64,000 nt of DNA, from the NCBI GenBank assembly GCA_031274365.1, contig JAISQF010000008.1:53489-117488 (forward strand), given 5' to 3'. Below the pieces are notes generated by a model. It saw only the letters and a program-made list of their open reading frames with translations. It made no database searches and was not told the DNA's origin. The position numbers were made by a program, and so were the translations under genes. Shown one piece after another: positions 36,856-61,921 of this stretch (its first letter is position 1; every line of letters starts with the position of its first letter). The stretch is from Elusimicrobiota bacterium (lineage in GTDB: Bacteria; Elusimicrobiota; Endomicrobiia; Endomicrobiales; Endomicrobiaceae).

Positions 36856-37986
36856 TTATTTTTTCAGAAATTGCATAAACGCTTCTTTATTTTCAACAGG
36901 ACTCATTTTTGGTCTTCCCAAATCTTTCCTCGCTCCTTTACGAACAATAATTTCAATAAAAATTAAACCGCAATTTTCTCTCGTTTGCGCAAGAACTTTT
37001 TTCATTTCATCTTTATTAGACACGCTATATACTTTTTCATAACCTGCGGCGCGCGCTATTTGGCAAATATCTATAAACGGCGCTATTGTGGGTTGTCCTC
37101 CGACAGAATCGTGAGCTCCGTTATTTAACACAATATGGCGCAAATTAAACGGTTTTTTTGTTCCGATAGCGCATAAAGATCCCAAATGCATAAGCACTGC
37201 GCCGTCGCCGTCAAGACAAGTGAACCTAATTTCCGGTTTTTCTAAAGCGGCGCCAAGCGCGATATGAGAAGCATGTCCCATAGAGCCGACTGTAAGAAAA
37301 TCATGACTGTGATTCATTTTATATTTATCTCTTATTTCATAAAGCTCCCGCGAAATCATACCGGTAGTCGAAATAAAAGCCTCATTTTCATTTGACAAAT
37401 TTACAATATCTTCAATAGCTTCCTCTCTGCTCATTTGCGCTTTATTATCATAACCCTTATTTTGCAAAACATAAGGCTTAAAAATATCTTTCCTGACGAC
37501 AAAAGCATAAGGAGCGCTGTTTTTAGAAAAATAATCAAAACATTGCGCCATCTGTTTTTTTACATCATCTTCATTATTTTCAACGATAGAGTAAGGTATT
37601 CCTAACGTTTTAAGAATATCGCAGGTGACTTTCCCCTGCTTAACGTGTTGAGGCTCGTCTTTTATTCCGGGCTCGCCGCGCCAGCCGATAAGCAAAATCA
37701 TCGGTATTTGATAAACGTCAAAATCGGCAAGAGACAATAAAGGATTTATCGCATTTCCTATGCCGGAATTTTGCATATAGATTAGAGGGATTTTCCCCAA
37801 AGCAAGATAATAACCGGCGGCAAGTCCTATGGCTGCTCCTTCATTTACGGCTACGATATGTTTTTTATCGCCGCAATTATCCGTAATAAAAGCGCAAAAA
37901 CTTTTCAAAAGAGAATCGGGAACACCGCAAAAAAAATCAACGTTATTTTTTTTTAGCTCTGAATAAAAAAACGAAACGTCTATCAT
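36856..37986 (-). CDS. aepY: Phosphonopyruvate decarboxylase
   Basis: FFYSELKKNNVDFFCGVPDSLLKSFCAFI..AVNEGAAIGLAAGYYLALGKIPLIYMQNSGIGNAINPLLSLAD..LDGDGAVLMHLGSLCAIG (ThDP); start overlaps pepM stop. Confidence 0.92.
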   Translation of the reverse strand: MIDVSFFYSELKKNNVDFFCGVPDSLLKSFCAFITDNCGDKKHIVAVNEGAAIGLAAGYYLALGKIPLIYMQNSGIGNAINPLLSLADFDVYQIPMILLIGWRGEPGIKDEPQHVKQGKVTCDILKTLGIPYSIVENNEDDVKKQMAQCFDYFSKNSAPYAFVVRKDIFKPYVLQNKGYDNKAQMSREEAIEDIVNLSNENEAFISTTGMISRELYEIRDKYKMNHSHDFLTVGSMGHASHIALGAALEKPEIRFTCLDGDGAVLMHLGSLCAIGTKKPFNLRHIVLNNGAHDSVGGQPTIAPFIDICQIARAAGYEKVYSVSNKDEMKKVLAQTRENCGLIFIEIIVRKGARKDLGRPKMSPVENKEAFMQFLKK

Positions 37987-39296
37987 TATTTGCCTCCCGG
38001 TATCAATTCCAAAATCTCTTTTATGGGCATACAAAATTCGTCGGCTCTAATCGAACGTTCGTCGTCGAGTATAATTTTTGCAACATTTAACATAGCGGGA
38101 TAAGACGCGCGCAGCATGTGATTTGCATAGATAATAATATTTGCGCCCCACGATAAAAATTCTTTTTCTCTAAATTGGTTGTATGTCGTGGGAACGAGAA
38201 CTATCGGAACGCTCAAATAATCGTCCCTAAATCTTAAACAAAATTCTTTAATGTCCTGTCCGCTTTTTTCTTTGCTGTGAATCATAACTCCGTCCGCTCC
38301 GGCCTCGACATAAGCTTTGGCTCTTTTAAGCGCGTCGTCCACGCTATGGCCCGCTATCAAACTTTCAAGCCTTGCTATAATCATAAATTCTTTCGTTATT
38401 TGAGCGCGTTTTCCCGCTCTTATTTTTAAGCAAAAATCCTCGATAGACGAAAGTTCTTGTTTAACTTCAGTTCCAAAAAGCGAATTCTTTTTCAATCCGA
38501 CTTTGTCCTCGATGATAACGGCCGATATGCCGTTTCTTTCAAGAGTGCGGACTGTAAAAACAAAATGCTCGGTTTTTCCGCCGGTATCTCCGTCATAAAT
38601 AATCGGTTTTGTCGTGCATTCAAGAATATTCGTCAAGTCCTGCATCCGCGTCGTTAAATCCACCGCTTCAATGTCGGGTTTTCCTTTGCTGGCAGAATCC
38701 GTAAGACTCGACGACCACATTCCGTCAAAACTGTGCAAGCCGTCTTCTTTTTGTATTTCAAGTTTTTCAATTATCAACCCCGACAAACCCGAATGCGCCT
38801 CCATAATTCTTACTATTTTTTTTACCTCTATAAGACGTTTTAACGACGCAAGACGAACGTCGGGAGTAATTCCTATCGAACGCATAGCCTCGCCCATAGC
38901 CGAAGAATTTACTCCTTTGGTGTAAGGGATTTCTATCACCTCTCCGCCAAGCTCTTTCATTAAAGCAAAAACATCGTCTCTTTCTTTTCTCAAAAATCCG
39001 CTTTCCCAATCGTCTCCGTGAATAATCGCATCCGGTTTATACTTGCGCAAATTCGGAATATAACTCCACTCCTCCTGAGCCACGATACGCGACACTCCTT
39101 TAATATTTTCTATCACCGCTTTTCTTTGCTCGTAATTTAGATAAGGAACTCTTTTGCGCGACGCTATCGCGCTGTCTGTGAGAAGTCCCACCAAAACGTC
39201 GCCTCTTTTTGCGGCTTCCTTTATTATATTTATAATTCCGGGATGAACGATTTCTCCGCTCAAACCCAAATAAATAGTTTTCGTTTTATCCGTCAT
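37986..39296 (-). CDS. pepM: Cytidylyltransferase-like domain (HxGH lost) fused to phosphoenolpyruvate mutase
   Basis: PIIYDGDTGGKTEHF; VIIEDKVGLKKNSLFG = EDKx5NS PEP mutase signature; N-term VHPGIINII. Confidence 0.93.
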   Translation of the reverse strand: MTDKTKTIYLGLSGEIVHPGIINIIKEAAKRGDVLVGLLTDSAIASRKRVPYLNYEQRKAVIENIKGVSRIVAQEEWSYIPNLRKYKPDAIIHGDDWESGFLRKERDDVFALMKELGGEVIEIPYTKGVNSSAMGEAMRSIGITPDVRLASLKRLIEVKKIVRIMEAHSGLSGLIIEKLEIQKEDGLHSFDGMWSSSLTDSASKGKPDIEAVDLTTRMQDLTNILECTTKPIIYDGDTGGKTEHFVFTVRTLERNGISAVIIEDKVGLKKNSLFGTEVKQELSSIEDFCLKIRAGKRAQITKEFMIIARLESLIAGHSVDDALKRAKAYVEAGADGVMIHSKEKSGQDIKEFCLRFRDDYLSVPIVLVPTTYNQFREKEFLSWGANIIIYANHMLRASYPAMLNVAKIILDDERSIRADEFCMPIKEILELIPGGK

Positions 39297-41116
39297 ATTT
39301 CCTCCATATATTTTTTAAGAATACGGCAAAATTCTTGCATTTCCCAAACTTTTATATCTCCGATATTTGCAATGCGAAAAGTATCGGCTTGCGAAATTTT
39401 TCCGGGATAAATAGTAAATCCGCTCTTTTGCGCAAAATCATGAAAATCGTCAAAATTATATTTTGGAGATTTTGGCTCTAAAACAGCCGTTATCATTTTT
39501 GATTGATGTTTAAGCGGAACAAGCATTTTTAATTTTAATTCGTCAACCGTTTTCACAAGCTCTTTCCAGCAAGCCGAGTAACGAGCGTAGCGTTTTTCTA
39601 TAGTTTCAATTTTTGTCTCGATAATAGCTTGGCGCAAAGCGTAAAGAGTCTGAACGGGAGGAGTAAAACGCATTTGTTTGCTTTTTTCAAAATGCAAATA
39701 TTGAGACCATAAATTCAAATAATAATTTCTCATAGGATAATTTTTTATATTTTCAAGCGCTTGTTTGCGGCAAAAAACAAAAGCCGCTCCCGCCATTGCC
39801 TGAATATTTTTATTTGAAGTCGAAGCCATAAAGTCAATACAGTCTCTATCCATATCAATAGGTATGGCGGCAAAAGCGCTTACCGCGTCCACTATTGTAA
39901 CAATTCCATACTCACGGCAAAAACGACAAATCTCAGGCACAGGATTTAATAGACCCGTTGTAGTTTCATGATAGACAATGGCAATATGAGTAAATTTCCC
40001 GTCAATCAATTTTGATTTCAAAGTTTCAATATCAATTGGTAAAAATCCGGAACTTTCATAAATCTCAAAATTAATTTTATAAACCTCGGCAATCTTTGCC
40101 AAACGCAAACCGTAAGCGCCGTTATTAACTATCAAAAGTTTTCCGTCGTCGGGTATGCAGGAAGAAATCATCGCCTCGTCGGCCGCCGTTCCCGACCCAC
40201 CGAATAAAACTGTTTTTATATTTTCTTTTTTCCCCACCATTGCCGAAAGTTCGTCGCATATCCATCGCATAATCCCGCCAAACTTTTTTTCCCTCGGACA
40301 TATGTCGGGACATATTTGAGCGTATTTTACGCTGTCGGTAGTCGTGGCCGGCCCCGGATTTAACAACACTTCGCGCTCGACGGAATATAAAGATTCGTTT
40401 TCAATAATACGCGGAAGAATTTCTTTTTTTGCCATTTCCAAATGATTATTGTCGTCAATTTCACGCCAAGCGTAATATTGTATTTTTTTTACAAAAACCG
40501 GACAATCGCCGGTTGAAACGGACGCGAGAACTTTTTCATAATCAAGTTTTGGAAAATCTTTTTTATTTTTGTCAAAAAACAGACGCATAGATTTTAGCAA
40601 TTTAAGAGAAACTTTGCTGATGCCGACCAACTCCGCACCGGCATTTGCAAGTTCGTCTTTTTTCTTAGATATATTTTTTAACAAATCGTTTTTTCCTATC
40701 TCAATATAGACTTCGTCGCCCGAGCAAGTCGCGCCTGAAGCTAAAACAATATTCGAACGTCTGTCGTTTATCAAAACGTTTAATCCGGCTTTATCATAAA
40801 TCAAATCCGATTCAAGCAATAAAAAATCATCGTCTATCAAATCCACGCAAATATCGAGAGTGGCCATACTTCCAACGTTTGCATAATCATAATTTTTTAT
40901 CGTGCGGATAACGGAATATTTTTTTGCCAAATCGTCGTAAAAATTACTGCAATGCCCGGTCCCTATTATAATTTTGTCTATCCCCGCATTTATAAGTTTT
41001 TGAACCGACCACTCGACGATGGCAATGCCGTTTAGCTCTATAAAACCTTTAGGCATATATTTCGTTTTATCTTCTAATCTCGAACCCAGCCCGGCAGCAA
41101 GTATAACAGCTTGCAT
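39293..41116 (-). CDS. NTP transferase (PntC-like) fused to 2-aminoethylphosphonate transaminase
   Basis: N-term VILAAGLGSRLEDKTKYMPKGFIELNG; C-term LLNPGPATTTDSVKYAQICPDICPREKKF..VDAVSAFAAIPID..STSNKNIQAMAG. Confidence 0.9.
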   Translation of the reverse strand: MQAVILAAGLGSRLEDKTKYMPKGFIELNGIAIVEWSVQKLINAGIDKIIIGTGHCSNFYDDLAKKYSVIRTIKNYDYANVGSMATLDICVDLIDDDFLLLESDLIYDKAGLNVLINDRRSNIVLASGATCSGDEVYIEIGKNDLLKNISKKKDELANAGAELVGISKVSLKLLKSMRLFFDKNKKDFPKLDYEKVLASVSTGDCPVFVKKIQYYAWREIDDNNHLEMAKKEILPRIIENESLYSVEREVLLNPGPATTTDSVKYAQICPDICPREKKFGGIMRWICDELSAMVGKKENIKTVLFGGSGTAADEAMISSCIPDDGKLLIVNNGAYGLRLAKIAEVYKINFEIYESSGFLPIDIETLKSKLIDGKFTHIAIVYHETTTGLLNPVPEICRFCREYGIVTIVDAVSAFAAIPIDMDRDCIDFMASTSNKNIQAMAGAAFVFCRKQALENIKNYPMRNYYLNLWSQYLHFEKSKQMRFTPPVQTLYALRQAIIETKIETIEKRYARYSACWKELVKTVDELKLKMLVPLKHQSKMITAVLEPKSPKYNFDDFHDFAQKSGFTIYPGKISQADTFRIANIGDIKVWEMQEFCRILKKYMEEI

Positions 41117-41153: not shown

Positions 41154-43673
41154 TTAAAGCAATTCTCCCTTGTCGAATCTGCGCCCTCTTATTTCAACTT
41201 CCGTATTCTTAATTTTATATTTCAACGGAATAGGAGAGTCGTAAAGATAAGCAAAAACAATGGGAAATAAATCCTGAACTATGGTAAATTCTTTATCATA
41301 TTTTGACGCTCTTTTTTTATCAGGCCAATGTATCGCCATAAATGCGCCAAAAGTGTCGCGAAAATGCATAGCGCTTATTTCTTTTGCGTCAAGACTGGAA
41401 TAAAGACGGACGGCATCGTCTAATAAAACGGGCCCGTGATCGCTCATTATAATTACAATCGCGTCCGGATTATTTCTTAAAGTCAATTCAAGTTCTTTTT
41501 TCATATCTTTTATCGAATTGTAATATCTTGGTTTCCATCTGCGCTGCTCCTCGGCGGAACCATGTCCCTGTAATGTCGAATGGTCGGGACCCGTATGTCC
41601 CCAAGCAAAAATTTTATCTTTATTATTTTGTTTAGAGGCAAATTTAGCGGTCACCATAGCGGGATAATCGGAATAATATTTTAACATTGTGCTGTTTAGA
41701 TATCCCTGCATTATCCCAAGCAATACTTGAGGCATAAAACCGTATTTATTCATTACTCTCATAACAGAATCAACGTCTTGGGATTGATAATCGACAAGAC
41801 TGCCTTCAAGCCAAATTGAATATCCTTTGCTGTGCAATAAAATATCGGTAAAATTTTCTCCGCTCATAATTTTTTCCCAAAGTATGCTTACGGAAGGATG
41901 ATTGTTGTTGACATCTGTAAATGAGATTGTTGACATCACCAAAGCGCTTTTATCCGAGATATTAAAAATAGACGACATTGTCCCTAACGTATTATCGGTA
42001 ATAGAATAAACGTCATAAATAGTAAAATCATATTCCTTTAATATTTCCTCTACTTCTTCATAATCAATATTTAAAACTTGGGCTAAATCTTTTCTTGGAA
42101 AAGCGTCATGCATAAAAAGATAAATGCTCGGCGTGTCCTTCATATCCATATTTAGTAATTCTTCGGGAACGGCTTCGACAATTTGATCTTTTACGTCGAT
42201 ATTTACCACATTGTCGTCTTGAGACGCGGACTTTAATGCAAAAGCTGAAAAAGGACTATATGCGGCGCCGCAAAGTAAAAATATAATTAAAATTTTTCTA
42301 TACCTTTTTATAAGATTGAGGACAAAAAATACGAAAGCAAATAAAATAATAAAATCAACTGAAATATCTCCCGTAAATTTTACCATAGTTCTTATTAAAG
42401 GTAAAAACATAGCCGACAATATAAAAGAAACCGATAAATCCGTAATTTCTCTTAGCGGCAATGAACTAAAAAAAGAAGAAATCACAGGTAACAATGCCGC
42501 AAAAAATATAAGTATCGCCAGATATATAATTATGTCGTTTCCGACGAAATACATTTGATTTGGATTAACATAAATCAAAGCCGGAAATAAAACCGCAACC
42601 ATACAAAAACCCGAACTTTGCGCATATTCTTTAAAAAGATATTTTTTGAAATGCCATTTATTGCAAATTAAAAAGAAAAGCAAAACCGACAATAAATAAT
42701 AAAGTTTCTCGTCTAAATATACTCTGTTGGGGATGAGAAATAACAATAAGGCAATTAAAATTATTCTGCTCTTAAAATGTTTGTCCTGTTTTATATTAGA
42801 GTGAATATAACCGCAGGCTTTTAGAATGCAAGCCGCATAAGAAAGAATCAAAGCGCCGTAAAGAATAGGAACATTTGATTTGTCAAAATTTCCAAAAGAA
42901 AAAAGATTTATAGAAAAATAAAGAGCGCAAAAAAGCAGGAAAACGCTTAACTCGTCTTTGTTTATAAAACCCTTTATCTTTTTGCCGACCGCCTGCGCAA
43001 TTTCAGAAACACTATTTTCTTTATTCCAAATTATAAAATATCTAATCATATTTATAAGATTGTTAAATGTCCAATAAAGAACTAATCCAGCGGGCGAAGT
43101 ATAAAGCAATACTAAGAAAAATACCGCTATAATATAACTTTGTTTTCTCTCTTTTTCTGTTTCTCTGCTCACGCTGCCGGCATTCCAAGTCATAAATATC
43201 GCGGCCGCAAAATTTATCAATGTCATCATTACCGGCAATAAATTTACTCCGCCCAAAATTTTATCAGGCTCGCCCAAATCATTTATAAATAAAAAGCTTA
43301 CTCCTCTAAGTCCTTCAAAATGTTTCAACATTTCGTATGCCGCTATAAAAAAAGGAATTTGTATTAGCAGCGATGACAATGAACGCAATGAATATATAGG
43401 CGAATATTTAAACGATTTATAAAGCTTTTGCATATGCTTGTGACGAATTTGAGGATCTTTAATTTTATTTATGCGCTCTATAAAGGGATCTAATCTTTCC
43501 CTTGTATTCTTCTCGCGCTTTTCTAAAATTCCGGTAAGATAATAAAAAGGCGTTAAAAATCCTGTGACGGCTATTGATAGAAAAATAATTGAAATCCCGT
43601 ATGAATTGCTGATAATATAAAAATATTCAAATACATTTCTTAATGCTGTTTCTAAATAATGCATACGACACAA
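41154..43673 (-). CDS. YidC/Oxa1-like domain + polytopic membrane region + C-terminal sulfatase/alkaline-phosphatase-fold domain (fusion, copy 1)
   Basis: SPIYSLRSLSSLLIQIPFFIAAYEML..TSPAGLVLYWTFNNLINMIRYFII; C-term PSIYLFMHDAFPRKDL..NTLGTMSSIF..FAWGHTGPDHSTLQGHG..IIMSDHGPVLL. Confidence 0.85.
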   Translation of the reverse strand: MCRMHYLETALRNVFEYFYIISNSYGISIIFLSIAVTGFLTPFYYLTGILEKREKNTRERLDPFIERINKIKDPQIRHKHMQKLYKSFKYSPIYSLRSLSSLLIQIPFFIAAYEMLKHFEGLRGVSFLFINDLGEPDKILGGVNLLPVMMTLINFAAAIFMTWNAGSVSRETEKERKQSYIIAVFFLVLLYTSPAGLVLYWTFNNLINMIRYFIIWNKENSVSEIAQAVGKKIKGFINKDELSVFLLFCALYFSINLFSFGNFDKSNVPILYGALILSYAACILKACGYIHSNIKQDKHFKSRIILIALLLFLIPNRVYLDEKLYYLLSVLLFFLICNKWHFKKYLFKEYAQSSGFCMVAVLFPALIYVNPNQMYFVGNDIIIYLAILIFFAALLPVISSFFSSLPLREITDLSVSFILSAMFLPLIRTMVKFTGDISVDFIILFAFVFFVLNLIKRYRKILIIFLLCGAAYSPFSAFALKSASQDDNVVNIDVKDQIVEAVPEELLNMDMKDTPSIYLFMHDAFPRKDLAQVLNIDYEEVEEILKEYDFTIYDVYSITDNTLGTMSSIFNISDKSALVMSTISFTDVNNNHPSVSILWEKIMSGENFTDILLHSKGYSIWLEGSLVDYQSQDVDSVMRVMNKYGFMPQVLLGIMQGYLNSTMLKYYSDYPAMVTAKFASKQNNKDKIFAWGHTGPDHSTLQGHGSAEEQRRWKPRYYNSIKDMKKELELTLRNNPDAIVIIMSDHGPVLLDDAVRLYSSLDAKEISAMHFRDTFGAFMAIHWPDKKRASKYDKEFTIVQDLFPIVFAYLYDSPIPLKYKIKNTEVEIRGRRFDKGELL
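42895..43664. repeat. Direct repeat copy 1 (YidC-domain coding segment)
   Basis: Near-identical to 46671..47440 at constant offset 3776. Confidence 0.9.
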
Positions 43674-43684
43674 CCTCTTTGTTT

Positions 43685-44953
43685 TTACGTTGAGATGTCA
43701 GTTATTTGGCGCGCGATTATTTCGGCCGATAAGCCGATATTTGTTACTATTGAATCTTTGTCTATACTTGCTTTATTATTAATACATCCTTTGATTTTTT
43801 CAACTATATTTCCTATTTCATCTTTCTTTACATAAGCGCCTAAATCCTTTCCTATCTCCACGTCCCAACAATAGCCTAAATCGGCGTATTCATATTGATC
43901 ATAATTTTCATATCCCGTCTCTAAAGATATAATCGGCCTGTCAAAAGCAAAAAGAAAATCAAATCTTACCGCCGAAACATCAGACACTAAAACATCAGCT
44001 CTTGCAAGACTTTTTAAGTTATCGATTTCATCGTCAAATTTTATATTCGTAAAATCTTTTAACTGTCCGGCCAATTTATCGATAAAGTCGGGCTCAAAAA
44101 CATATGAATAAGGATGAGGTCTGACTATGACATTATATCCCGCTTGCGCAATTTGTTTAATAAAATCGGCGCCATATGTTTTTAGGCATCCTCTTTTATC
44201 CCATGTTGAAGCTATCAAAACTGTTTTTCCGTCGGTTTTTATATCAAGCCGCGACGCTTTGGCTATTAAATTATCCATATAAGGCAAGCCGCCTATAAGC
44301 AGTTTTTTAGGGGGCAAGTTGCGTTTTTTCTCAAGCGCTCTGATGTCGCGCTCAAACTCTTTGCCGGAAAGAATCGCTGTGTCAAATGAGTCCAAAGAAT
44401 GTTTATGATAAATGCTTACGCTGCTTATGGAATGAAAAATATGAATAAGATTTTTACAATTTTTTGGTTTTTTTATCGGATAGCCGGGCGTTCCTATATT
44501 GGGAGTAGTGGTAACTAAATAAGGTTCTTTCAAAGCGCTTATCGCGGCATAACCTTTATTTCCTTTGCCGACATATTGTATGTCAAAAGCATCCAAATCC
44601 GCATTAGAATCTCCCAAATCCATTATTTCAAAAGCGGGATCGTCCATATCCATTGTGTAATATGTAAATCCAACTTTTCTTTTTATCAGCTCGTCTATAA
44701 TGTCTTTATAAAAAATCCAATACCTGCGGCCCTCTGAAAAAAAAGCGAGATTATTTGCGGCATTTGTTTTTATTTCTTTGCCGGTAATTTTTGCTTTAAC
44801 CTTATAATAAAGATTTTTTGAAAAAAATAAAACGCTGCCAATCAATCCAAAGAGCGCGGCCGCTAAAGCGTTTCCCGTCCCCGGATCAAGATAAGCGTAA
44901 GCATAGACGGGCAGAAATATTATAATTGCCGCCGCTAATTTCAACACATTCAT
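43685..44953 (-). CDS. CDP-glycerol glycerophosphotransferase-like protein with N-terminal YLDPGTGN membrane segment
   Basis: YLDPGTGNALAAALFGLIGSVLFF; LIHIFHSISSVSIYHKHSLDSFDTAILSG..VLIASTWDKRGCL..YNVIVRPHPYS..ARADVLVSDVSAVRFDFLFAFDRPIISLET. Confidence 0.78.
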   Translation of the reverse strand: MNVLKLAAAIIIFLPVYAYAYLDPGTGNALAAALFGLIGSVLFFSKNLYYKVKAKITGKEIKTNAANNLAFFSEGRRYWIFYKDIIDELIKRKVGFTYYTMDMDDPAFEIMDLGDSNADLDAFDIQYVGKGNKGYAAISALKEPYLVTTTPNIGTPGYPIKKPKNCKNLIHIFHSISSVSIYHKHSLDSFDTAILSGKEFERDIRALEKKRNLPPKKLLIGGLPYMDNLIAKASRLDIKTDGKTVLIASTWDKRGCLKTYGADFIKQIAQAGYNVIVRPHPYSYVFEPDFIDKLAGQLKDFTNIKFDDEIDNLKSLARADVLVSDVSAVRFDFLFAFDRPIISLETGYENYDQYEYADLGYCWDVEIGKDLGAYVKKDEIGNIVEKIKGCINNKASIDKDSIVTNIGLSAEIIARQITDIST

Positions 44954-44965
44954 TCCAATCTCCTT

Positions 44966-47440
44966 TTAATAAAAGTGCGGATAAAGTTTTCCTTTATCAA
45001 ATTTATAATCTTTAATTCTAACGTCGGTATTTTTTATTTTATATTTAAGAGGAATTTTGGAATCATATAAATAAGCCAAGACGATCGGAAATAAATCCTG
45101 CGTTATATAAAATTCTTTGTCATATTTTGAAGCTCTTTTTTTATCAGGCCAACGTATCGCCATCTCGGCGCCGTATTTATCTCTAAAATACAAAGAATTA
45201 ATATCCTTGTCTAAAACATTGGCATAATCATTTCTGGGATTGCCCAACATCCACGGTCCGTGATCGCTCATAAAAATAATAATGGCGTTTGGATTTTCTT
45301 TTATCATTATATCAATTTCTTTTCTAAAATCAGAAATCGCATTATAGTATTTTACAGACCACACTTTTAATTCATTGGATAAATCCAAACTCAATGAGGA
45401 ATGATCTGGTCCCGCCGATCCCCAAGCAAAAATTTTATCTTTGCCGGCATTCTTTTTAGCAAATTCGGCAACCTGCATAGCGGGGGATCCTTCGCGTCTA
45501 TATTTTAGAAGCATTGTGTTTAACCGCCCCTGCATTATTCCAAGCAGCACTTGATTTTGCATTTCTCCTTTTCCCGAAGTTAACCCATAGACAAAAAGAT
45601 TTTTATCAAATGCAGACGGATCGTCTTCTCCCGCGACGGCCGTCATATAACCTTTTTGTCGCAACAATAAATTTACAAAATTATCTCCCGCAAATATCTG
45701 GCGTCCTCTTTGTTCGTCTATAAAAACTTCGTCTATTCTGTGATCTTTTATATCAAAAACCGACGTCATAGAAACATTGGTGTAATATCCTATCGAATAA
45801 ACATCATAGACGACAAAATCATTTTGCGAAAAAATTTCATCAAGTTGGCTGTAATCGAGTCCCAGATATTGCGCCAGCTCTTTTGGAGGAAAACCGTCGT
45901 GCATAAAAAGATAAATGCTCGGCGTGTCTTTCATATCCATATCGATTAATTCTTTTGGAATATTTGTAGTCGGATTGATATTAGAACTTTGCCGCTCATT
46001 AGAATCTGAATTTATTTTAAGGCCGGAAAAAGCCGCATACAGAGCGGCGCATAAAAAGAAAATGATGATTATTTTTTTGTATTTATCAAACAGCCAAATT
46101 ATAAACAAAACGATTAAAAAGAATAAAACAAAATCAATTGAAGTCTCTCCCGCATATCCGACGCTTTCTCTAATCAGAGGAAGAAACATCGCTGAAATTA
46201 TAAATGAAACGGAGAAAATAGAAATTTTGTTTAATGAAGTTTGATTAAGAAAATATGTAATTAGCGGCAGACAAGCCGCAAAGAAAATCAATGCTAAAAA
46301 GTAGAAAAAAATATCATTGCCTACAAAATACACCGCATTTGATTTGAAATAAAGTATGGATGGAAAAAGCATTACCGTCACAGACAACATAGAAATTTTT
46401 AGATAATCTTTAAGAGGATAGAATTTGATTTTTTTATATTGATACGCGGCGAGTAAAATTAAGACGGCAAAAAGATAATGAGTTTTTTCATATTGATAAA
46501 CTGCAAAAGAAACGATATAGCAAATTATAACAATTGATATTTTAATTATAAAACTTTTATTTTTTGAAAAATTTTCTTTAATAAAACGCGCTGTTTTTAA
46601 TAATAATGCAAGATAAAAAGGAATAAGCAGCATAATGAGAATATTGGAATTATTTCTTGTATATGCCCCAAAAGAAAAAAGATTTATAGAAAAATAAAGA
46701 GCGCAAAAAAGCAGGAAAACGCTTAACTCGTCTTTGTTTATGAAATCCTTTATCTTTTTTCCAACCGCGCCAACAATTTCGCAAACGCTGTTTTCCTTAT
46801 TCCAAATTATAAAATATCTAATCAAATTAATAAAATTATTAAATGTCCAGTAAAGAACTAATCCAGCAGGCGAAGTATAAAGCAGCACTAAGAAAAATAC
46901 CGCTATAATATAACTTTGTTTCCTTTCTTTTTCTGTTTCTCTGCTTCCACCCCCGGCATTCCAAGTCATAAATATTGCCGCTATAAAATTTATCAATGTC
47001 ATCATTACCGGCAATAAATTTACTCCGCCCAAAATTTTATCAGGCTCGCCCAGATCTTTTATAAATAAAAAACTTATCCCCCTAAGTCCTTCAAAATGTT
47101 TTAACATTTCATATGCCGCTATAAAAAATGGAATTTGTATTAGCAGCGATGACAATGAACGCAATGAATATATCGGCGAATATTTAAACGATTTGTAGAG
47201 CTTTTGCATATGTTTATGGCGAATTTGAGGATCTTTAATTTTATTTATGCGCTCTATAAAAGGATCTAATCTTTCCCTTGTATTCTTTTCGCGCTTTTCT
47301 AAAATTCCGGTAAGATAATAAAAAGGCGTTAAAAATCCTGTGACGGCTATTGATAGAAAAATAATTGAAATTCCGTATGAATTGCTGATAATATAAAAAT
47401 ATTCAAATACATTTCTTAATGCTGTTTCTAAATATTGCAT
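44966..47440 (-). CDS. YidC/Oxa1-like domain + polytopic membrane region + C-terminal sulfatase-fold domain (fusion, copy 2)
   Basis: First ~250 aa almost identical to 41154..43673; C-term PSIYLFMHDGFPPKEL..TNVSMTSVF..FAWGSAGPDHSSL..IIFMSDHGPWML. Confidence 0.85.
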   Translation of the reverse strand: MQYLETALRNVFEYFYIISNSYGISIIFLSIAVTGFLTPFYYLTGILEKREKNTRERLDPFIERINKIKDPQIRHKHMQKLYKSFKYSPIYSLRSLSSLLIQIPFFIAAYEMLKHFEGLRGISFLFIKDLGEPDKILGGVNLLPVMMTLINFIAAIFMTWNAGGGSRETEKERKQSYIIAVFFLVLLYTSPAGLVLYWTFNNFINLIRYFIIWNKENSVCEIVGAVGKKIKDFINKDELSVFLLFCALYFSINLFSFGAYTRNNSNILIMLLIPFYLALLLKTARFIKENFSKNKSFIIKISIVIICYIVSFAVYQYEKTHYLFAVLILLAAYQYKKIKFYPLKDYLKISMLSVTVMLFPSILYFKSNAVYFVGNDIFFYFLALIFFAACLPLITYFLNQTSLNKISIFSVSFIISAMFLPLIRESVGYAGETSIDFVLFFLIVLFIIWLFDKYKKIIIIFFLCAALYAAFSGLKINSDSNERQSSNINPTTNIPKELIDMDMKDTPSIYLFMHDGFPPKELAQYLGLDYSQLDEIFSQNDFVVYDVYSIGYYTNVSMTSVFDIKDHRIDEVFIDEQRGRQIFAGDNFVNLLLRQKGYMTAVAGEDDPSAFDKNLFVYGLTSGKGEMQNQVLLGIMQGRLNTMLLKYRREGSPAMQVAEFAKKNAGKDKIFAWGSAGPDHSSLSLDLSNELKVWSVKYYNAISDFRKEIDIMIKENPNAIIIFMSDHGPWMLGNPRNDYANVLDKDINSLYFRDKYGAEMAIRWPDKKRASKYDKEFYITQDLFPIVLAYLYDSKIPLKYKIKNTDVRIKDYKFDKGKLYPHFY
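46671..47440. repeat. Direct repeat copy 2 (YidC-domain coding segment)
   Basis: Near-identical to 42895..43664. Confidence 0.9.
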
Positions 47441-47443: not shown

Positions 47444-48085
47444 TTATTCTCTAATACTTTCCCATATAAGCATTGCGGCTTCTTTTGGATTATGCGCTTC
47501 TATAATAGGTCTGCCTACGACTATAAAATCCGCTCCGTTTCTAACGGCATTTTGAGGCGTCGCAACTCTTTTTTGATCATCGTCTGTTTTCAATAAACGA
47601 ATGCCGGGCGTAATTACTTCAAAATTTTTTCCAAACTCCTTTTTTATGACGGCAATTTCAAGAGGAGAGGCGATGACGCCGTCAGCCGCGCAATCCTTCG
47701 CAAGCTTCGCCATTTTTAGAACTTCAGCCTCGCTTGTCATTTGGCTTGTAAGAATAGTCACAGCCCAAATCTTAGGTCTCTTTTCAACTGAAACCGCGCC
47801 CTCAAGCATTTCTTTACCGCCGGCGCAATGAACCGTCAAACTATAAACGCCAAGCTCCCTTGCGGATTCAACGGAACGTTTAACCGTCGCCGGTATATCG
47901 TGAAATTTCAAATCCAAGAAAATTTCTTTGCCGTTATCTTTTAACATTTTTATTATTTCTTTACCCGATTGCAAAAAAAGCACCGGACCGACTTTGAAAA
48001 TATCAATATAGCCGCTTGTGTCTTTGACGAGCTTTTCGGCTTTCTTTAAGTCATAAACGTCAAGAGCAAGAATTATTTTTTTCAT
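47444..48085 (-). CDS. pyrF: Orotidine 5'-phosphate decarboxylase
   Basis: IILALDVYDLKKAEKLVKD; EIFLDLKFHDIPATVKRSV; VTPGIRLL; DFIVVGRPIIEA. Confidence 0.95.
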   Translation of the reverse strand: MKKIILALDVYDLKKAEKLVKDTSGYIDIFKVGPVLFLQSGKEIIKMLKDNGKEIFLDLKFHDIPATVKRSVESARELGVYSLTVHCAGGKEMLEGAVSVEKRPKIWAVTILTSQMTSEAEVLKMAKLAKDCAADGVIASPLEIAVIKKEFGKNFEVITPGIRLLKTDDDQKRVATPQNAVRNGADFIVVGRPIIEAHNPKEAAMLIWESIRE

Positions 48086-48201
48086 TTTTCATCCTTTTTG
48101 TTTAATCTCGTTTAAGTCATTTGTATTTAATCAATCTCTGCATATTTTTTCAAAAAACATTTTTACAAAAATTATATTTCTCTGATTTTTTATCATCAAT
48201 T

Positions 48202-49110
48202 TTATCTTTTCATAGCTCCGGATATTTCTTTAATCGATTTTATTTTTTTTACCGATAAAAAATTTTCAAGACCGTCTATAATTTTTATAAGATTTTTTGG
48301 AGAAATCAAACTCGCCGTTCCTACGCTTACCGCGCTTGCGCCCGCAAGCATAAATTCCACAGCGTCTTGCCATGTCATTATTCCGCCGCAGCCAAGTATG
48401 GGGATTTTAATTTTTTGATACGCGTCATAAACGCAGCGTATTGACATAGATTTTACGCACGGTCCCGACAAGCCGCCTTTTATAGTTGAAAGTTTCGGCT
48501 TAAAAGTTTCTATATCTATTGCCATCGCGGGATATGTGTTTGCAAGAGTTACGGCGTCCGCTCCGCAATTTTGCGCGGATAATGCAAGCTCTGAAATGTC
48601 GGTAATCAGAGGAGAAAGTTTTACAATAATGGGAACTTTAGAAATTTTTTTTACCCGCTTAATAATATCTTTTGTTAAAGATACGTCATGACAGATAATT
48701 TTTTTTTTCAAATTCGGACAGGAAAGATTTAGCTCGACTGCCGCTATCTCCTTAAACCCGTTTAATATTTTTACAATCTCGGCATAATCTTTGCCGCATT
48801 TTCCAGCAATGCTTACGATAATTGGAACGCCGGTTTTTTTTAAGTTTTCAAGCGGCTTTTCAATAAAATTCTTTACGCCGATATTTTGCAATCCTATGGC
48901 GTTGAGCATTCCGCTTTCAACTTCGGCAATTCTGGGCTGCGGATTTCCTAAACGCGGCTCAAGAGTGATTGTTTTTGTAATAATTGCCCCGAGTTTTTCT
49001 AAGGGAATTAAGTCGGCAAGTTCATAACCGTAACCAAAAGTCCCCGACGCCGTTAATACCGGATTTTTTAATTTTATTCCCGCAAAATTTATATTTAATT
49101 TCGTATTCAT
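48202..49110 (-). CDS. pyrD: Dihydroorotate dehydrogenase, class 1B
   Basis: FAGIKLKNPVLTASGTFGYGYELADLIPLEKLGAIITKTITLEPRLGNPQPRI; VELNLSCPN. Confidence 0.95.
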   Translation of the reverse strand: MNTKLNINFAGIKLKNPVLTASGTFGYGYELADLIPLEKLGAIITKTITLEPRLGNPQPRIAEVESGMLNAIGLQNIGVKNFIEKPLENLKKTGVPIIVSIAGKCGKDYAEIVKILNGFKEIAAVELNLSCPNLKKKIICHDVSLTKDIIKRVKKISKVPIIVKLSPLITDISELALSAQNCGADAVTLANTYPAMAIDIETFKPKLSTIKGGLSGPCVKSMSIRCVYDAYQKIKIPILGCGGIMTWQDAVEFMLAGASAVSVGTASLISPKNLIKIIDGLENFLSVKKIKSIKEISGAMKR

Positions 49111-49171
49111 TTTAATTTCTCAATTTTTAATACGCCGAAATCTTTTTTATCTACTCCGCACCCTCGCAATA

Positions 49172-50584
49172 TCAGTTTTTAGCTTTATCTAATGTTTGGC
49201 TGATACTTTTAGGCGCTTTTGACGCGTGTTGATCCACAAAAAATTTATTTTTTGGACTATGATGTAAATTTCCCGCTCCGCCGACGCATCCTCCGACACA
49301 AGCCATACCCTCTATAAAATTTTCAACTCTATTATCTTTATTAGCCGACGCTTTCAACAAAGCTTTATTACATTCCTCCAAGCCGTTGCAAGCAACAGCT
49401 TTTAATTCAAAATCAATACTTTGTTCTTTAAGCGCTTCTCTCACGGCTTCGCTCACGCCGCCGCTTCTTGCAAAAATTCTTCCAAAATACGAAGCGTCTG
49501 AAAAATCATCTCCCTCAAGCGCTTGTATTTCTATATCGCGGCTCTCGATAAGAGCTTGTAATTCCTCATACGTCAAAACGCTGTCAACATATTTTCTAAC
49601 TTTCTGATCTTGAAATTCCATTTTTTTTGCCGTGCAAGGCCCGATAAAAACGACTTTAATATCTTTATCTTTTTCTTTAAGAAATTTCGCTATCTCTCCC
49701 ATGGGCGAAAGATTATGAGAAATATTATCTTTCATATCCGGATAATTTTTCTTTACAAAAGACACAAAACTCGGACAACACGAACTTGTGAGAAATTTCT
49801 TTTGCGACAATTCCAAAGCCTCGTTATAAGCCGTCATATCCGCGCCTAAAGCCACTTCCCAAACTTCCTGAAAACCAAGTTTTTTAATTGCGCTTATAAG
49901 TTGTCCCATAGAGGCAAAATCAAATTGTCCGGCAATTGACGGCGCGCAAATCGCGTAAATTCTTTCCCCTTTTTTTATCATATCTATAACGTCTAAAATA
50001 AAAGATTTATCGGTTATCGCTCCGAAAGGACATTTGGCTATGCAAGCTCCGCAAGAAACGCATTTGTCATTATCTATAAAACTTGCTCCGTCGTCTTGCC
50101 TTTTAACCGCGTTAACCTTACAAGCCGTCTGGCACGGCGGAACAAAATTGATAATCGCATTATAAGGACAAACCCGCGCGCAAAGTCCGCAGTTAATGCA
50201 TTTTGTTTTATCTATATGAGACGTGCGGTCCTCGCCTATGCTAATCGCTTTTTTAGGACAAGATTCCAAACAGTTATGAGACAAGCATCCTCTGCAGATA
50301 TTTGTAACATTGTATCCGTCCACCGGACAGCCGTCGCAGGCTATGTCTATTACTTCTATGACATTTGGATTATTTTTATTTCCGCCCATCGCTATTTTTA
50401 TCCTCTCGCTTAAAATTGCTCTTTCCTTAAAAATGCAGCAACGAAGCGTCGGACGCGGTCCCGGCATAATTTTTTTTGGTATATCCGTAAGGTCGTCAAT
50501 TAAAGTTCCCTTAAAATAACTTCTTGAAATTTCAGTTAAAACTTTATGTTTAAGCAGTTTAACCGTTGAGTCAAATTTTTTCAT
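49172..50584 (-). CDS. [FeFe]-hydrogenase-like protein with N-terminal ferredoxin domains
   Basis: H-cluster-like motifs TSCCPSF, GPCTAKKMEFQ, EGMACVGGCVGGAG; ferredoxin clusters CINCGLCARVCP, CVSCGACIAKCP. Confidence 0.88.
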   Translation of the reverse strand: MKKFDSTVKLLKHKVLTEISRSYFKGTLIDDLTDIPKKIMPGPRPTLRCCIFKERAILSERIKIAMGGNKNNPNVIEVIDIACDGCPVDGYNVTNICRGCLSHNCLESCPKKAISIGEDRTSHIDKTKCINCGLCARVCPYNAIINFVPPCQTACKVNAVKRQDDGASFIDNDKCVSCGACIAKCPFGAITDKSFILDVIDMIKKGERIYAICAPSIAGQFDFASMGQLISAIKKLGFQEVWEVALGADMTAYNEALELSQKKFLTSSCCPSFVSFVKKNYPDMKDNISHNLSPMGEIAKFLKEKDKDIKVVFIGPCTAKKMEFQDQKVRKYVDSVLTYEELQALIESRDIEIQALEGDDFSDASYFGRIFARSGGVSEAVREALKEQSIDFELKAVACNGLEECNKALLKASANKDNRVENFIEGMACVGGCVGGAGNLHHSPKNKFFVDQHASKAPKSISQTLDKAKN

Positions 50585-50599
50585 TTACCTTCTCCTGTT

Positions 50600-51877
50600 T
50601 TATTTAGATAAAAATCTACTAATTATTGGAAAAATTATCACTAAAATATAGACTGACAGAAAGCCTATAAAGAACGGCATTTGACCTTTGGCTATGGCGC
50701 CCGCACTGAGTTTTGTAAAAGTTTTTGCGGCAAAAATACTTACAGCCACGGGCGGCGTCATAGATCCTAAAACCGCTCCGACGCACATTATCATTGCAAA
50801 ATGAACTCCGTCAATACCCAGACTTTGAGCTATGGCATAAAATGCCGGCGCTAAAAAAACACATATCGCCGCTCCGTCGAGAACAGTTCCTATTGCAATA
50901 ACTATAAATCCCGCAAATAAAGAAAAAGACAGAGGCGAAAGATCCAAAACACTAACTGTGTTTTGTAAATATTTATCAAGTCCGGAATTTATAAAAATAA
51001 CGGAAAAAAGATTTGCCCCGATAATAATAAATAAAATCATAGCCGAATTTTTTGCGCAATTAAAAAAAGCGCGGACAAACTTTTCTTTATTAAGAGTTTT
51101 ATAAACGAAAAATCCCAAAAGCAAAGCGTATAAACTTGAAGCGGCGCCGGCTTGCAAAGGCGTTAGGATTTTGAAATAAATGCCGCCCGCTATAATAATA
51201 GGTATAAAAGCCGCAGGCAATAAAGAGATAAAAGATTTAACAAAATCTCTAAACACAAATTTTTCAATATTCCTGCGCAAATTTTCTTTCTTACCAATGT
51301 ATAAACAAATAATCATATAAACTACAGTAAGTATTATTCCTATACCCATACCGGCCGTAAATAAATCTTTTATCGGGATTTTTGTAATTGAAGAATAGAC
51401 AATCATAATGACGCTTGGCGGAATAATGGATCCTAAAGAACCCGCCGCCGTAAAAAGTCCAGCCGAGCGTTCTTTGGGATAACCCAAAGCCGTCATCTGC
51501 TCATACAAAACTGAACCGACAGCTATCACCGTAAGCGGCGCGGGACCTGCTAATGCTGAAAAAAAAGCGCATGCGGCGACTGCGGCATAATTTAGCCCGC
51601 CGCGCATTCTCCCCAAAAAAGAATCTAAAAAAATAATTATTTTTTTTGAGATTCCGCTTTCCATCATAATATTTCCAACAAGAATAAAAAAAGGAATGGA
51701 CATAAGCGCGTCGGACTGCAAACTTGCAACCATACGTTTAGCCAAAAAATCGGGAGCGATGTCTAATAAAAATGCGCCGGCAAGAGCGCAGAAACCAAGC
51801 GCCGCGGTTATGGGAACGCCGGAGATCAAAAGAACAATAAGTAAAAACAATAAAATTAAAATGGAATAGATAGTCAT
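50600..51877 (-). CDS. TRAP transporter large permease (DctM family)
   Basis: LISGVPITAALGFCALAGAFLL; MSIPFFILVGNIMMESGI; FFSALAGPAPLTVIAVGSVLYEQMTALGYPKERSAGLFTAAGSLGSIIPPSVIMIVY. Confidence 0.92.
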   Translation of the reverse strand: MTIYSILILLFLLIVLLISGVPITAALGFCALAGAFLLDIAPDFLAKRMVASLQSDALMSIPFFILVGNIMMESGISKKIIIFLDSFLGRMRGGLNYAAVAACAFFSALAGPAPLTVIAVGSVLYEQMTALGYPKERSAGLFTAAGSLGSIIPPSVIMIVYSSITKIPIKDLFTAGMGIGIILTVVYMIICLYIGKKENLRRNIEKFVFRDFVKSFISLLPAAFIPIIIAGGIYFKILTPLQAGAASSLYALLLGFFVYKTLNKEKFVRAFFNCAKNSAMILFIIIGANLFSVIFINSGLDKYLQNTVSVLDLSPLSFSLFAGFIVIAIGTVLDGAAICVFLAPAFYAIAQSLGIDGVHFAMIMCVGAVLGSMTPPVAVSIFAAKTFTKLSAGAIAKGQMPFFIGFLSVYILVIIFPIISRFLSK

Positions 51878-51935
51878 TTATCCCTCAGTTAATAACTCTA
51901 TTAAAAAATGCCGCTCTATTAAAACGCAAAATATA

Positions 51936-51971
51936 CAATTAAGCGTTAAAATTTAACGGCTTTTTTAATTG
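51936..51971. promoter_or_regulatory. Imperfect inverted repeat between pyrK and dctM-like genes
   Basis: caattaagCGTTAAAATTTAACGgcttttttaattg. Confidence 0.4.
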
Positions 51972-51994
51972 TCGTATTCATATTCGCTTGGCTT

Positions 51995-52765
51995 TTACAA
52001 GTTTTGATTAATATAAAAAACCGGTCCGTCTTTACAGACCATTTTGTTTTGCCCGTCGATTAAAACGGAGCAGCCTTGACAATTTCCAACGCCGCAAGCC
52101 ATTTTTTCCTCAAGAGAAACACAGCCGCTTAAAGAATAATGCCGCGCAATTTTAATAGCCGCATTCATCATAGGAGACGGTCCGCATACATATATATAGT
52201 ATGATGAAAAATTTTCTTTTTCTCGAAAACGCAATGCCAAATCTTTTTCAAACATTTCCGTAACAAAACCTTTATAACCTTTTGATCCGTCTTCGGTAGA
52301 AATAAAAACGCGCCAGCCGAGCTTGCGAAATTTATCAAGACAAATTAAATCTTTGCGCGACCTTGCCCCGTAAAAAAGTATTCCCTTCTTTTTTTTAATC
52401 GCGGCCGCCAAACAATAAAGCGAGGCAATACCCGTTCCGCCTGCTATAAGCACCGGAGTTTTTGACCCTATATTTAAGTCATATCCATTGCCTAAAGGAC
52501 CTAAAATTTCTATTTTCCCTTTTTTCATTTGAGACAAAATTCCAGTTCCCTTGCCGGCAACTTTATACAAAAAGGAAATAGTTTTTTTCTCTATCTTATG
52601 AACGCCCATGGGACGGCGTAAAAAAACGCCGGGAATATTTATCATAAAAAACTGTCCCGGCGCGCAAATTTTTGCAGCGCTTATCCACTCCGCTTTCATC
52701 TCAAAAAAAAACTTTCCGGCTTGTTTATTAGAAATAATTTTGCAAACCGTATCCCTCCGCATCAA
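51995..52765 (-). CDS. pyrK: Dihydroorotate dehydrogenase electron-transfer subunit
   Basis: PGQFFMINIPGVFLRRPMGVHKI; GPLGNGYDL; ACGVGNCQGCSVLIDGQNKMVCKDGPVF (2Fe-2S). Confidence 0.93.
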   Translation of the reverse strand: MMRRDTVCKIISNKQAGKFFFEMKAEWISAAKICAPGQFFMINIPGVFLRRPMGVHKIEKKTISFLYKVAGKGTGILSQMKKGKIEILGPLGNGYDLNIGSKTPVLIAGGTGIASLYCLAAAIKKKKGILFYGARSRKDLICLDKFRKLGWRVFISTEDGSKGYKGFVTEMFEKDLALRFREKENFSSYYIYVCGPSPMMNAAIKIARHYSLSGCVSLEEKMACGVGNCQGCSVLIDGQNKMVCKDGPVFYINQNL

Positions 52766-54036
52766 TTCTTACGCTCCCAGACAATCTTTCCGCCGACGAT
52801 AGTCATACAAGCGCCGCCCTTAAAATCTCTGTCGATAAAGGGAGAATTTTTGCTTTTCGAAACAATGCTTTCTTTACTGAATTTATAAGAATAATCAAGG
52901 TCTATTATCGTTATATCGGCAATAGATCCGGCTTGCAAATTACCTCTATTTTTTAAGTTAAAAATTTTTGCGGGATTAGCCGTCATTTTTGCCACGGCTT
53001 GGGATAATGTCAAAACTTTCGTATAAACAAGCTCGCTTAAAATCAAACTTAAACAAGTTTCAAAACCTATAATTCCAAAAGGCGCATTATCAAATTCTCT
53101 TGATTTCTCCTCTTGAGCGTGAGGAGCGTGATCCGTCGCTATACAGTCTATAGTCCCGTCGCAAAGCCCGTCTTTTACAGCCTTAACGTCTTTTTTACTT
53201 CTCAAAGGAGGATTCATTTTTGTATTTGTATCATAAGCTTTGACAATATCGTCCGTTAAAGAAAAATAATGCGGACAAGTTTCGGCGCTGATTTTAAGAC
53301 CGGATTTTTTTGCCTGTCTTATTAAATTTACTGAAAGCGCCGTCGAAATATGAGCAAAATGAACGGATCCGCCCGTGAGCTCGGCAAGTAAAATATCGCG
53401 GCTCACCATTACTGCTTCGGCTTGAGCGGGTATTGGACGCAAACCTAAAATCGTAGAATTTAATCCCTCATTCATCACTCCGTTTCTACTCAACTCTTTA
53501 TCCTCGCAATGAGAAATTACCGGTATATTAAACATCTTCGTATATTCAAGAGTCCTTCTCATTATTTGAGAATTTGAAATGGGATTTCCATCGTCGCTTA
53601 CCGCGACAATTCCGGCTTTTTTCAAAACGCCTATTTCCGAAAGCTCCTCGCCCAAAGATCCTTTTGTGGCGCATCCTATGGGAAAAACATTTACCAAACC
53701 CTCTTTTTGAGCTTTTAATAAAATAAATTCCACAGTCGGCGCATTATCTATGACGGGATTGGTGTTTGGCATACAAAAAACGCTTGTTATTCCGCCTTTA
53801 GCGGCCGCTCTCGTGCCCGTATAAATTGTTTCTTTTCCTTCCATTCCCGGCTCTCTTAAATGAGAATGAATGTCGATTAAACCGGGGACTGCAATTTTGC
53901 CTTTCCCGTCGATAATTCTATCCGCTTTTTTTGAAAGCGAAGAAACAATTTTTCCGCCCTCCACAAAAAGAGAACCCTTTTTGTCTTTATTAAAAGCCGG
54001 ATCTATAATTCTAATATCGTCAATCTGAATACGCAT
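52762..54036 (-). CDS. pyrC: Dihydroorotase
   Basis: VPGLIDIHSHLREPGMEGKETIYTGTRAAAKGGITSVFCMPNTNPVID; ATDHAPHAQEEK. Confidence 0.96.
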   Translation of the reverse strand: MRIQIDDIRIIDPAFNKDKKGSLFVEGGKIVSSLSKKADRIIDGKGKIAVPGLIDIHSHLREPGMEGKETIYTGTRAAAKGGITSVFCMPNTNPVIDNAPTVEFILLKAQKEGLVNVFPIGCATKGSLGEELSEIGVLKKAGIVAVSDDGNPISNSQIMRRTLEYTKMFNIPVISHCEDKELSRNGVMNEGLNSTILGLRPIPAQAEAVMVSRDILLAELTGGSVHFAHISTALSVNLIRQAKKSGLKISAETCPHYFSLTDDIVKAYDTNTKMNPPLRSKKDVKAVKDGLCDGTIDCIATDHAPHAQEEKSREFDNAPFGIIGFETCLSLILSELVYTKVLTLSQAVAKMTANPAKIFNLKNRGNLQAGSIADITIIDLDYSYKFSKESIVSKSKNSPFIDRDFKGGACMTIVGGKIVWERKN

Positions 54037-54961
54037 TTTTATTCGCCTTTGGTTTTAATAAAAATAAAATCGCCATCCTTACGGCAATGCCGTTTGTCAC
54101 TTGCTCGTTTATCACGGCATTTACGCTGTCGGCGACTTCCGACGAAATTTCTATCCCTCTATTCATCGGACCCGGATGCATTACTAAAACATTTGATTTT
54201 GCTTTTGCAAGTCTGTCTTTTGTCAATTGATATAATTCCACATATTCATGAACCGAGGGAAAAAGATTTTCTTTTTGTCTCTCTAATTGAATTCTCAAAA
54301 TATTTACCACGTCGGCAGTTTTAAGCGCTTCGTCTAAATTATAAAAAACTTTCACTCCGAGCTTTTCAATTCCCTGAGGAATTAAAGTCGGCGGACCGGC
54401 GACGGCGACATCCGCGCCCATTTTTGTCAATGCCCAAATATTTGATTTTGCAACGCGCGAGTGCAAAATATCGCCGACAAGCAAAACTTTCAAATTCTCG
54501 AATTTTTTCTTTTTTTCAAAAATCGTATAAAGGTCAAGCAGTCCTTGCGTCGGATGCTCGTGAAATCCGTCTCCGGCATTTATTACGGAAGCGTCTAAAT
54601 TCCTTGCAAGAATATCGGGCGCGCCCGTCATAGAATGTCTTATTATAATATAGTCGGCATTCATCGCGGCAAGAGTTTTGCCCGTGTCTATCAGACTCTC
54701 TCCCTTTACGACGCTTGAAGCGTTCACGGCGAGATTTACAACGTCTGCCGACAATCTTTTAGCGGCGATTTCAAATGAAGTTCTTGTTCTTGTGGAAGGT
54801 TCATAAAAAAGAGTCACCACAGTTTTTCCGACTAATGTGGGCGCTTTTTTTACGGAGCGCATAAAAAGACTTTTAAAAGGTTTTACCGAATCTAAAATAA
54901 TTTGAATTTCTTTTTTATCAAGAAACTCAAGTCCTAAAAGATCTTTGCGGTTAAAAAGCAT
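54020..54961 (-). CDS. pyrB: Aspartate carbamoyltransferase catalytic subunit
   Basis: TVVTLFYEPSTRTRTSFEIAAKRLSAD; INAGDGFHEHPTQGLLDLYTI; MHPGPMNRGIEI. Confidence 0.97.
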   Translation of the reverse strand: MLFNRKDLLGLEFLDKKEIQIILDSVKPFKSLFMRSVKKAPTLVGKTVVTLFYEPSTRTRTSFEIAAKRLSADVVNLAVNASSVVKGESLIDTGKTLAAMNADYIIIRHSMTGAPDILARNLDASVINAGDGFHEHPTQGLLDLYTIFEKKKKFENLKVLLVGDILHSRVAKSNIWALTKMGADVAVAGPPTLIPQGIEKLGVKVFYNLDEALKTADVVNILRIQLERQKENLFPSVHEYVELYQLTKDRLAKAKSNVLVMHPGPMNRGIEISSEVADSVNAVINEQVTNGIAVRMAILFLLKPKANKNAYSD

Positions 54962-54972
54962 TTTTGTTTCCT

Positions 54973-55491
54973 TTATATTTTGACGACTATATTTTTATCA
55001 TAATCAACTTTTACCAACTGTTTTGTCGGATATTTAATTCCCGTAAAATTCGCCTCAATCGGCAATTCTCTATGTCCCCTATCGACTAAAACGGCAAGCT
55101 TAATGGATCTTGGCCGCCCGAAATCCATCAAGACGTCCAAAGCCGCTCTGACAGTTCTGCCCGTATAGAGAACATCATCGACAAGAATAATATTTTTTTC
55201 ATTTATCTCAAAAGGAATGGCTGTTTCTTTAATAAGAGGAATATCCGCGCCGCGTTTATAAATATCGTCTCTGTAAAGGGTAATGTCTAAAGTTCCAAAA
55301 GGAATTTTTAACAAATCGTCTTTGGCGAGTTTTACAATTTTATCAATTATCCTTTTTGCTAAAACAACTCCTTTTCCGTGTATGCCTATCACGGCCAAAT
55401 TTTTTATATTTTTATTATCGTCAAAAATCTGGCGCGACATTCTTGTAATGGCGTCGTTAAAATCAGCGCTTTCTAAAATTATTTCTTGCAT
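54973..55491 (-). CDS. pyrR: PyrR bifunctional regulator/uracil phosphoribosyltransferase
   Basis: ILVDDVLYTGRTVRAALDVLMDFGRPRSIKLAVLVDRGHRELPIEANFTGIKYPT. Confidence 0.95.
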   Translation of the reverse strand: MQEIILESADFNDAITRMSRQIFDDNKNIKNLAVIGIHGKGVVLAKRIIDKIVKLAKDDLLKIPFGTLDITLYRDDIYKRGADIPLIKETAIPFEINEKNIILVDDVLYTGRTVRAALDVLMDFGRPRSIKLAVLVDRGHRELPIEANFTGIKYPTKQLVKVDYDKNIVVKI

Positions 55492-61909: not shown

Positions 61910-61921
61910 AAATTCCGTTCC

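Follow-up and report, generated by a model that had tools for sequence, protein, structure and literature searches.

The window analysed here is a stretch of 64,000 nucleotides from an Elusimicrobiota bacterium of the Endomicrobiaceae (assembly GCA_031274365.1, contig JAISQF010000008.1, positions 53,489 to 117,488), and it holds on its minus strand a series of six genes that spans 47440 to 36856, with neighbours either separated by short gaps or slightly overlapping. In the order in which they are read, the genes, together with the predicted catalytic residues of the first, are:

44966..47440, minus strand: fusion protein B (824 aa), with a YidC/Oxa1 domain (1-217), a polytopic middle (about 239-473) and a sulfatase-fold domain (about 500-824)
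45260..45898, minus strand: predicted catalytic residues of B, from conservation in 27 homologues: D515 (45896-45898), nucleophile T554 (45779-45781), H680 (45401-45403) and D726-H727 (45260-45265)
43685..44953, minus strand: PF04464 CDP-glycerol glycerophosphotransferase-like protein (422 aa), with a GT-B fold and an N-terminal YLDPGTGN membrane segment
41154..43664, minus strand: fusion protein A (836 aa from ATG; 839 aa from a TTG at 43673), with the same architecture as B
39293..41116, minus strand: PntC-AEPT (607 aa), a cytidylyltransferase fused to a 2-aminoethylphosphonate aminotransferase (PDB 6pd1; TIGR03301)
37986..39296, minus strand: Ppm (436 aa), a phosphoenolpyruvate mutase with an N-terminal CTP_transf_like domain (TIGR02320; EDKVGLKKNS)
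36856..38034, minus strand: Ppd, a phosphonopyruvate decarboxylase (Pfam; TIGR03297)

Fusions B and A flank the TagF-like PF04464 gene, in agreement with the original prediction of two fusions bracketing a glycerophosphotransferase-like gene, the coordinates of which were correct and the genes of which all lie on the minus strand. That prediction drew a unit of three genes (41154-47440); the genes stand, but the extent does not, for the same strand runs unbroken into PntC-AEPT, Ppm and Ppd (36856-41116). Likewise, the TTG start of fusion A (839 aa) gives way to the ATG nine bases on (836 aa) as the more likely one. Directly upstream of the operon, on the same strand, lie pyrF, pyrD, pyrC, pyrB and pur genes (47444-62000, minus strand; named by eye from their translations), with a gap of 3 bp between pyrF and fusion B.

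The presence of a YidC domain at the N-terminus of both fusions, as originally proposed, is borne out by profile searches and by the fold of the model. PF02096 matches residues 22-215 of both proteins (E of about 2e-25, 90 bits against a cut-off of 35) and is found in all 27 aligned fusion homologues, and TIGR03592 scores 95.6-96.8 bits on the two proteins (cut-off 84.3). The AlphaFold2 model contains the five-transmembrane core fold and the cytoplasmic hairpin, with pLDDT mostly between 70 and 90 over residues 1-215, and Foldseek matches the N-terminus of the model to E. coli YidC (6al2; E=3.6e-6). The fusions share this core and fold with the YidC/Oxa1/Alb3 insertases, but differ from them in carrying the domain at the N-terminus of a chain of 800-960 aa, in forming a separate clade, in having the basic groove residue replaced and in occurring alongside an ordinary YidC. 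In a tree with 52 canonical domains, the fusion domains make up one side of a single branch (SH-aLRT 100). At the groove position of E. coli R366, T, S or N is present in 34 of 36 fusions and K or R in none, whereas K or R occupies it in 32 of 35 canonical YidC proteins outside the Elusimicrobiota set; the 16 canonical Elusimicrobiota proteins all have Q. The loss of the groove arginine does not by itself prove that insertase function is lost, as canonical Elusimicrobiota YidC also lacks a basic residue there. An inserted arginine precedes the third transmembrane helix in 35 of 37 fusions. In the 341 Elusimicrobiota genomes searched, those bearing a fusion typically carry an ordinary YidC of about 530 aa as well, and hence the fusion is not the housekeeping insertase; in the genome of the window itself, a draft that is 59% complete, the fusions are the only YidC-type proteins seen.

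The hydrophobic stretch that follows the YidC domain was originally described as long and multi-pass, and this holds for both fusions, with about nine transmembrane helices in each. Hydropathy, shown for protein A, gives five YidC helices and nine more between the YidC and sulfatase domains, with K/R-rich loops in the cytoplasm; the odd number of helices after the YidC domain and this positive-inside pattern would place the catalytic domain outside the cytoplasmic membrane. The identification of this C-terminal domain as a sulfatase fold is a family-level result. PF00884 is borderline on B (24.8 bits against a cut-off of 25) and has no match on A, and a Pfam scan of the two window proteins alone was thus insufficient; the family profile and the fold supplied the assignment. 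PF00884 matches 23 of the 27 fusion homologues at E<=0.01, and Phosphodiest matches 18. When the 27-row fusion profile is compared with the PDB, E. coli YidC chains align with one end and LtaS, MCR-1, sulfatases and phosphonate monoester hydrolase with the other. Foldseek finds YejM, MCR/EptA and LtaS folds at the C-terminus of a model that has a mean pLDDT of 56.6 and is of low quality except in the YidC domain and the core of the sulfatase part. Lastly, D515, T554, D726 and H727 are kept in every one of the 27 homologues and H680 in 26, and therefore both the nucleophile and the metal site are preserved as in an active enzyme. LtaS, EptA and MCR likewise have, behind their transmembrane helices, a sulfatase-fold domain that lies outside the cytoplasm and carries D, T, D-H and H in its active site, but they have about five such helices, lack a YidC domain and draw on PG or PE as the donor, while in the fusions a YidC domain and some nine helices precede the catalytic domain. 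The window also encodes two further LtaS-like polytopic sulfatases (21324-23252 and 31053-33074, minus strand), with strong PF00884 matches and without a YidC domain.

The glycerophosphotransferase-like nature of the middle gene (43685-44953) is upheld by a PF04464 score of 49.9 bits (cut-off 22.1) and by the RPHP and SD motifs, in which R278, P279, H280, P281, D325 and S327 are invariant in 15-16 sequences; its model adopts the fold of CMP-binding, TagF-like capsule polymerases. The protein has the PF04464 family, the GT-B fold and these motifs in common with TagF/TagB-like CDP-glycerol phosphotransferases (Cps3D), but it is short and single-domain, bears a Y(I/L)DP(G/A)TGS membrane segment, and has CMP-AEP or LicC-type genes, not those of CDP-glycerol synthesis, as its neighbours. 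No separate TagD gene is present in the window operon, and the gene context argues for CMP-AEP over CDP-glycerol as the probable donor.

The remaining three genes are predicted with good confidence to provide a complete route to CMP-aminoethylphosphonate (CMP-AEP), because their products score above the relevant Pfam and NCBIfam cut-offs and resemble an enzyme of published activity. Ppm reaches 406 bits on TIGR02320 (cut-off 320) and its motif EDKVGLKKNS conforms to the EDKx5NS pattern; Ppd reaches 502 bits on TIGR03297 (cut-off 312); and PntC-AEPT exceeds the cut-off of TIGR03301 (NCBIfam) with its aminotransferase part and matches PDB 6pd1, Tde1415 of Treponema denticola, over its full length (E=1.3e-244). 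Tde1415 makes CMP-AEP in vitro, and the steps that come after it in T. denticola have been termed enigmatic (PMC6697681). The Pnt pathway of that species shares Ppm, Ppd and the PntC-AEPT fusion with the window operon, and a surface phosphonate is expected from it; its published form nonetheless ends at CMP-AEP, and the transfer steps, for which the fusion and PF04464 pair is a candidate, are absent from its description (PMC6697681). Elsewhere in the window (911-3257, minus strand), a second gene of the Ppm type, which also encodes a CTP_transf_like domain, adjoins an iron-containing alcohol dehydrogenase, a pair of the hydroxyethylphosphonate type; this Ppm-like protein lacks EDKx5NS and falls below the TIGR02320 cut-off, and its reaction is doubtful.

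The search for the same architecture in other genomes, covering 341 genomes of the Elusimicrobiota phylum and a profile-guided scan of GTDB contigs, yielded at least 40 fusion ORFs in at least 33 loci, and the single-ORF fusion thus recurs in many independent assemblies. A single-sequence locus search of the genome contigs, with patterns that were too specific, had returned no match. Among the matches listed are Endomicrobiia and other Elusimicrobiota, Treponema and other Spirochaetales, Brachyspira, Lachnospiraceae and one Ramlibacter MAG, and isolates with the fusion include Brachyspira alvinipulli and Lachnospiraceae NK4A179. Gene context was counted for 27 well-flanked fusions and 41 canonical YidC loci processed in the same way. 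A PF04464 gene lies within 500 bp of the fusion in 17 of the 27 and within the fetched locus in 23, as opposed to none of the canonical loci; cytidylyltransferase genes (19/27) and Ppm (10/27) are similarly absent from all 41. The neighbouring PF04464 proteins begin with a Y(I/L)DP(G/A)TGS membrane segment. By head-group genes, the census loci (L numbers) are distributed as follows:

Ppm/Ppd/PntC-AEPT: the window, L037, L038, L047, L056, L058 and L068, and L069 as separate genes
Ppm/Ppd/Fe-ADH (hydroxyethylphosphonate-type): L054
NTP_transf_3 fused to Aminotran_1_2: L061, L070 and L075
LicC fused to choline kinase: L076
HTH-LicC: L062
Aminotran_5 with CTP_transf_like: L036, L039, L049 and L043
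Neither a PF04464 nor a head-group gene within the fetched flank: L057, L063, L072 and L073

The constant element is the fusion together with PF04464, and the variable element is the set of genes that make the CMP-activated head group. Since the same pair stands beside genes for other head groups activated in this way, it appears to be a module of general use in head-group transfer. In another Elusimicrobiota genome (L045, 5652-9435), a polytopic sulfatase without a YidC domain resembles residues 337-795 of the window protein and lies near a small YLDAGTGS membrane protein; it is possibly an unfused relative of the fusion.

The two window fusions are 96% identical as proteins in their YidC domains and 47-53% identical in their transmembrane and sulfatase parts. 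At the DNA level (41163-47440), the first 800 nt, which encode the YidC part, are 98-82% identical, and the remainder is about 60% identical. A third copy of 849 aa is found in the same genome on another contig (C18; L004, 10239-13051), beside glycan genes and without phosphonate genes; it is followed by a PF04464 gene stub of 88 aa and shares part of the YidC block of A and B at 92-95%. The near-identical 5' parts and the shared block of the third copy suggest gene conversion among the copies. In turn, near-identical YidC domains, diverged sulfatase domains and a single PF04464 gene suggest one shared donor and two acceptors for A and B, though the pattern may reflect mere recombination in the better conserved half.

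The proposal that brings these observations together, and to which we give about an even chance, is that the six genes make and export a phosphonate surface decoration through lipid loading by the PF04464 enzyme, crossing by way of the YidC domain and transfer by the sulfatase domain. As their family identity predicts, Ppm, Ppd and the aminotransferase produce 2-aminoethylphosphonate (AEP), which PntC converts to CMP-AEP. Anchored in the membrane, the TagF-related PF04464 enzyme would then move AEP from CMP to a lipid acceptor at the cytoplasmic face; the hydrophilic groove of the YidC-type domain would let the AEP-lipid donor reach the outer leaflet; and the extracytoplasmic sulfatase-fold domain, to judge from its conserved residues, would form a phosphonyl-threonine intermediate and hand AEP on to an acceptor, either a glycan or a lipid. 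That the PF04464 enzyme loads a membrane lipid directly is a guess, because enzymes of this family normally lengthen sugar- or polyol-phosphate acceptors. The original reading of the locus as a head-group decoration machine gains support from catalytic residues of the sulfatase type, from a topology that puts their domain outside the cytoplasm, and from the adjoining CMP-AEP genes with their counterparts in other genomes; of the phospho- or phosphono-alcohol then envisaged, the phosphonate is retained, specifically as 2-aminoethylphosphonate. The separate clade, the lost basic groove residue and the published in vitro scrambling of lipids by Oxa1-family insertases, YidC among them (PMC10491306), fit the proposed use of the YidC fold as a platform or as a conduit for lipids. 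The proposed division of labour is like that of three-component decoration systems of lipid loading, flippase and outer transferase, such as GtrA-type glycosylation; this is an analogy from general knowledge, and in the fusions the head group would not be a sugar and the flippase-like and transferase parts share one chain.

As to the donor of the sulfatase domain, gene linkage fits either an AEP-lipid or ordinary phospholipids and cannot tell between them. The domain might thus act like EptA or LtaS, taking phosphoethanolamine or phosphoglycerol from ordinary phospholipids, while PF04464 alone adds AEP to glycans in the cytoplasm, the two working in parallel on the same polymer. We consider this rather unlikely. 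It would explain the profile and fold matches to MCR/EptA and LtaS and the fusions that have no PF04464 gene nearby, and it has a precedent for PF04464 in LicD-type transfer, the cytoplasmic transfer of phosphocholine by LicD being the accepted Lic model; but the pairing of fusion and PF04464 is tight, often overlapping, across phyla and head-group types, fusion paralogues cluster round one PF04464 gene, and the third copy retains its PF04464 stub, as if the pair moved as a unit.

Two other alternatives concern the YidC domain. It could still be a protein insertase or chaperone for its own polytopic part, or for the membrane segment of the PF04464 partner, with no handling of lipids, and the scores above the YidC model cut-offs and the preserved core fold and hairpin speak in its favour; other proteins with 9-13 transmembrane helices nonetheless manage without a private insertase, and the fusion domains form a single separate clade with lineage-specific residues (the inserted arginine and a groove without a basic residue), which leaves this reading, too, on the improbable side. 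A passive role as a membrane or docking scaffold without transport, for instance with the cytoplasmic hairpin as the binding site of the PF04464 enzyme, we judge unlikely. Fusion partners often act in docking, and the loops of canonical YidC bind the ribosome and SecYEG; the 24 columns that are invariant across 27 divergent fusion sequences, however, fall mostly within the YidC domain and exceed what a scaffold would need, a point that is suggestive only. Finally, an assembly or gene-fusion artefact of local YidC and sulfatase genes is exceedingly improbable: the draft is incomplete and poly-C tracts elsewhere in it look artefactual, but the fusion region has no long poly-G/C run and the same architecture recurs in independent assemblies, isolates included, so the fusions are not misassembled.

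One step still open in a widespread bacterial phosphonate pathway is the passage of AEP from CMP-AEP to the surface of the cell (PMC6697681); the fusion and PF04464 offer a two-protein candidate for it, and the fusion itself is a strong candidate for this missing step. In evolutionary terms, we put forward only tentatively that, on one occasion, a branch of the YidC/Oxa1 family turned into a dedicated translocator of lipids joined to a sulfatase-fold transferase, so that one chain would both flip and transfer CMP-activated phosphonate and phospho-alcohol head groups in three phyla. If true, this would be a natural case in which lipid scrambling by a YidC/Oxa1 protein is the selected function. 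The original remark that no function was known for this architecture agrees with the open-access literature, where we found no description of YidC joined to a sulfatase, a phosphonate function or a phosphoglycerol or phosphoethanolamine transferase, a paper elsewhere being possible. With a YidC-model score above the cut-off, the fusions will probably be labelled as membrane protein insertase YidC by automatic pipelines, so that an enzyme family of Treponema, Brachyspira and gut Lachnospiraceae would go unnoticed.

The window also carries tandem near-duplicates of glycosyltransferase genes (6952-13520), with three GT2-like copies (79-89% in blocks) and GT8-like copies (86-89%). A 16-base poly-C run (13115-13130) breaks a GT8-like gene. 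Phase variation was set aside as the default explanation of poly-G/C tracts, as such tracts also begin several contigs, and the run is more likely an assembly artefact.
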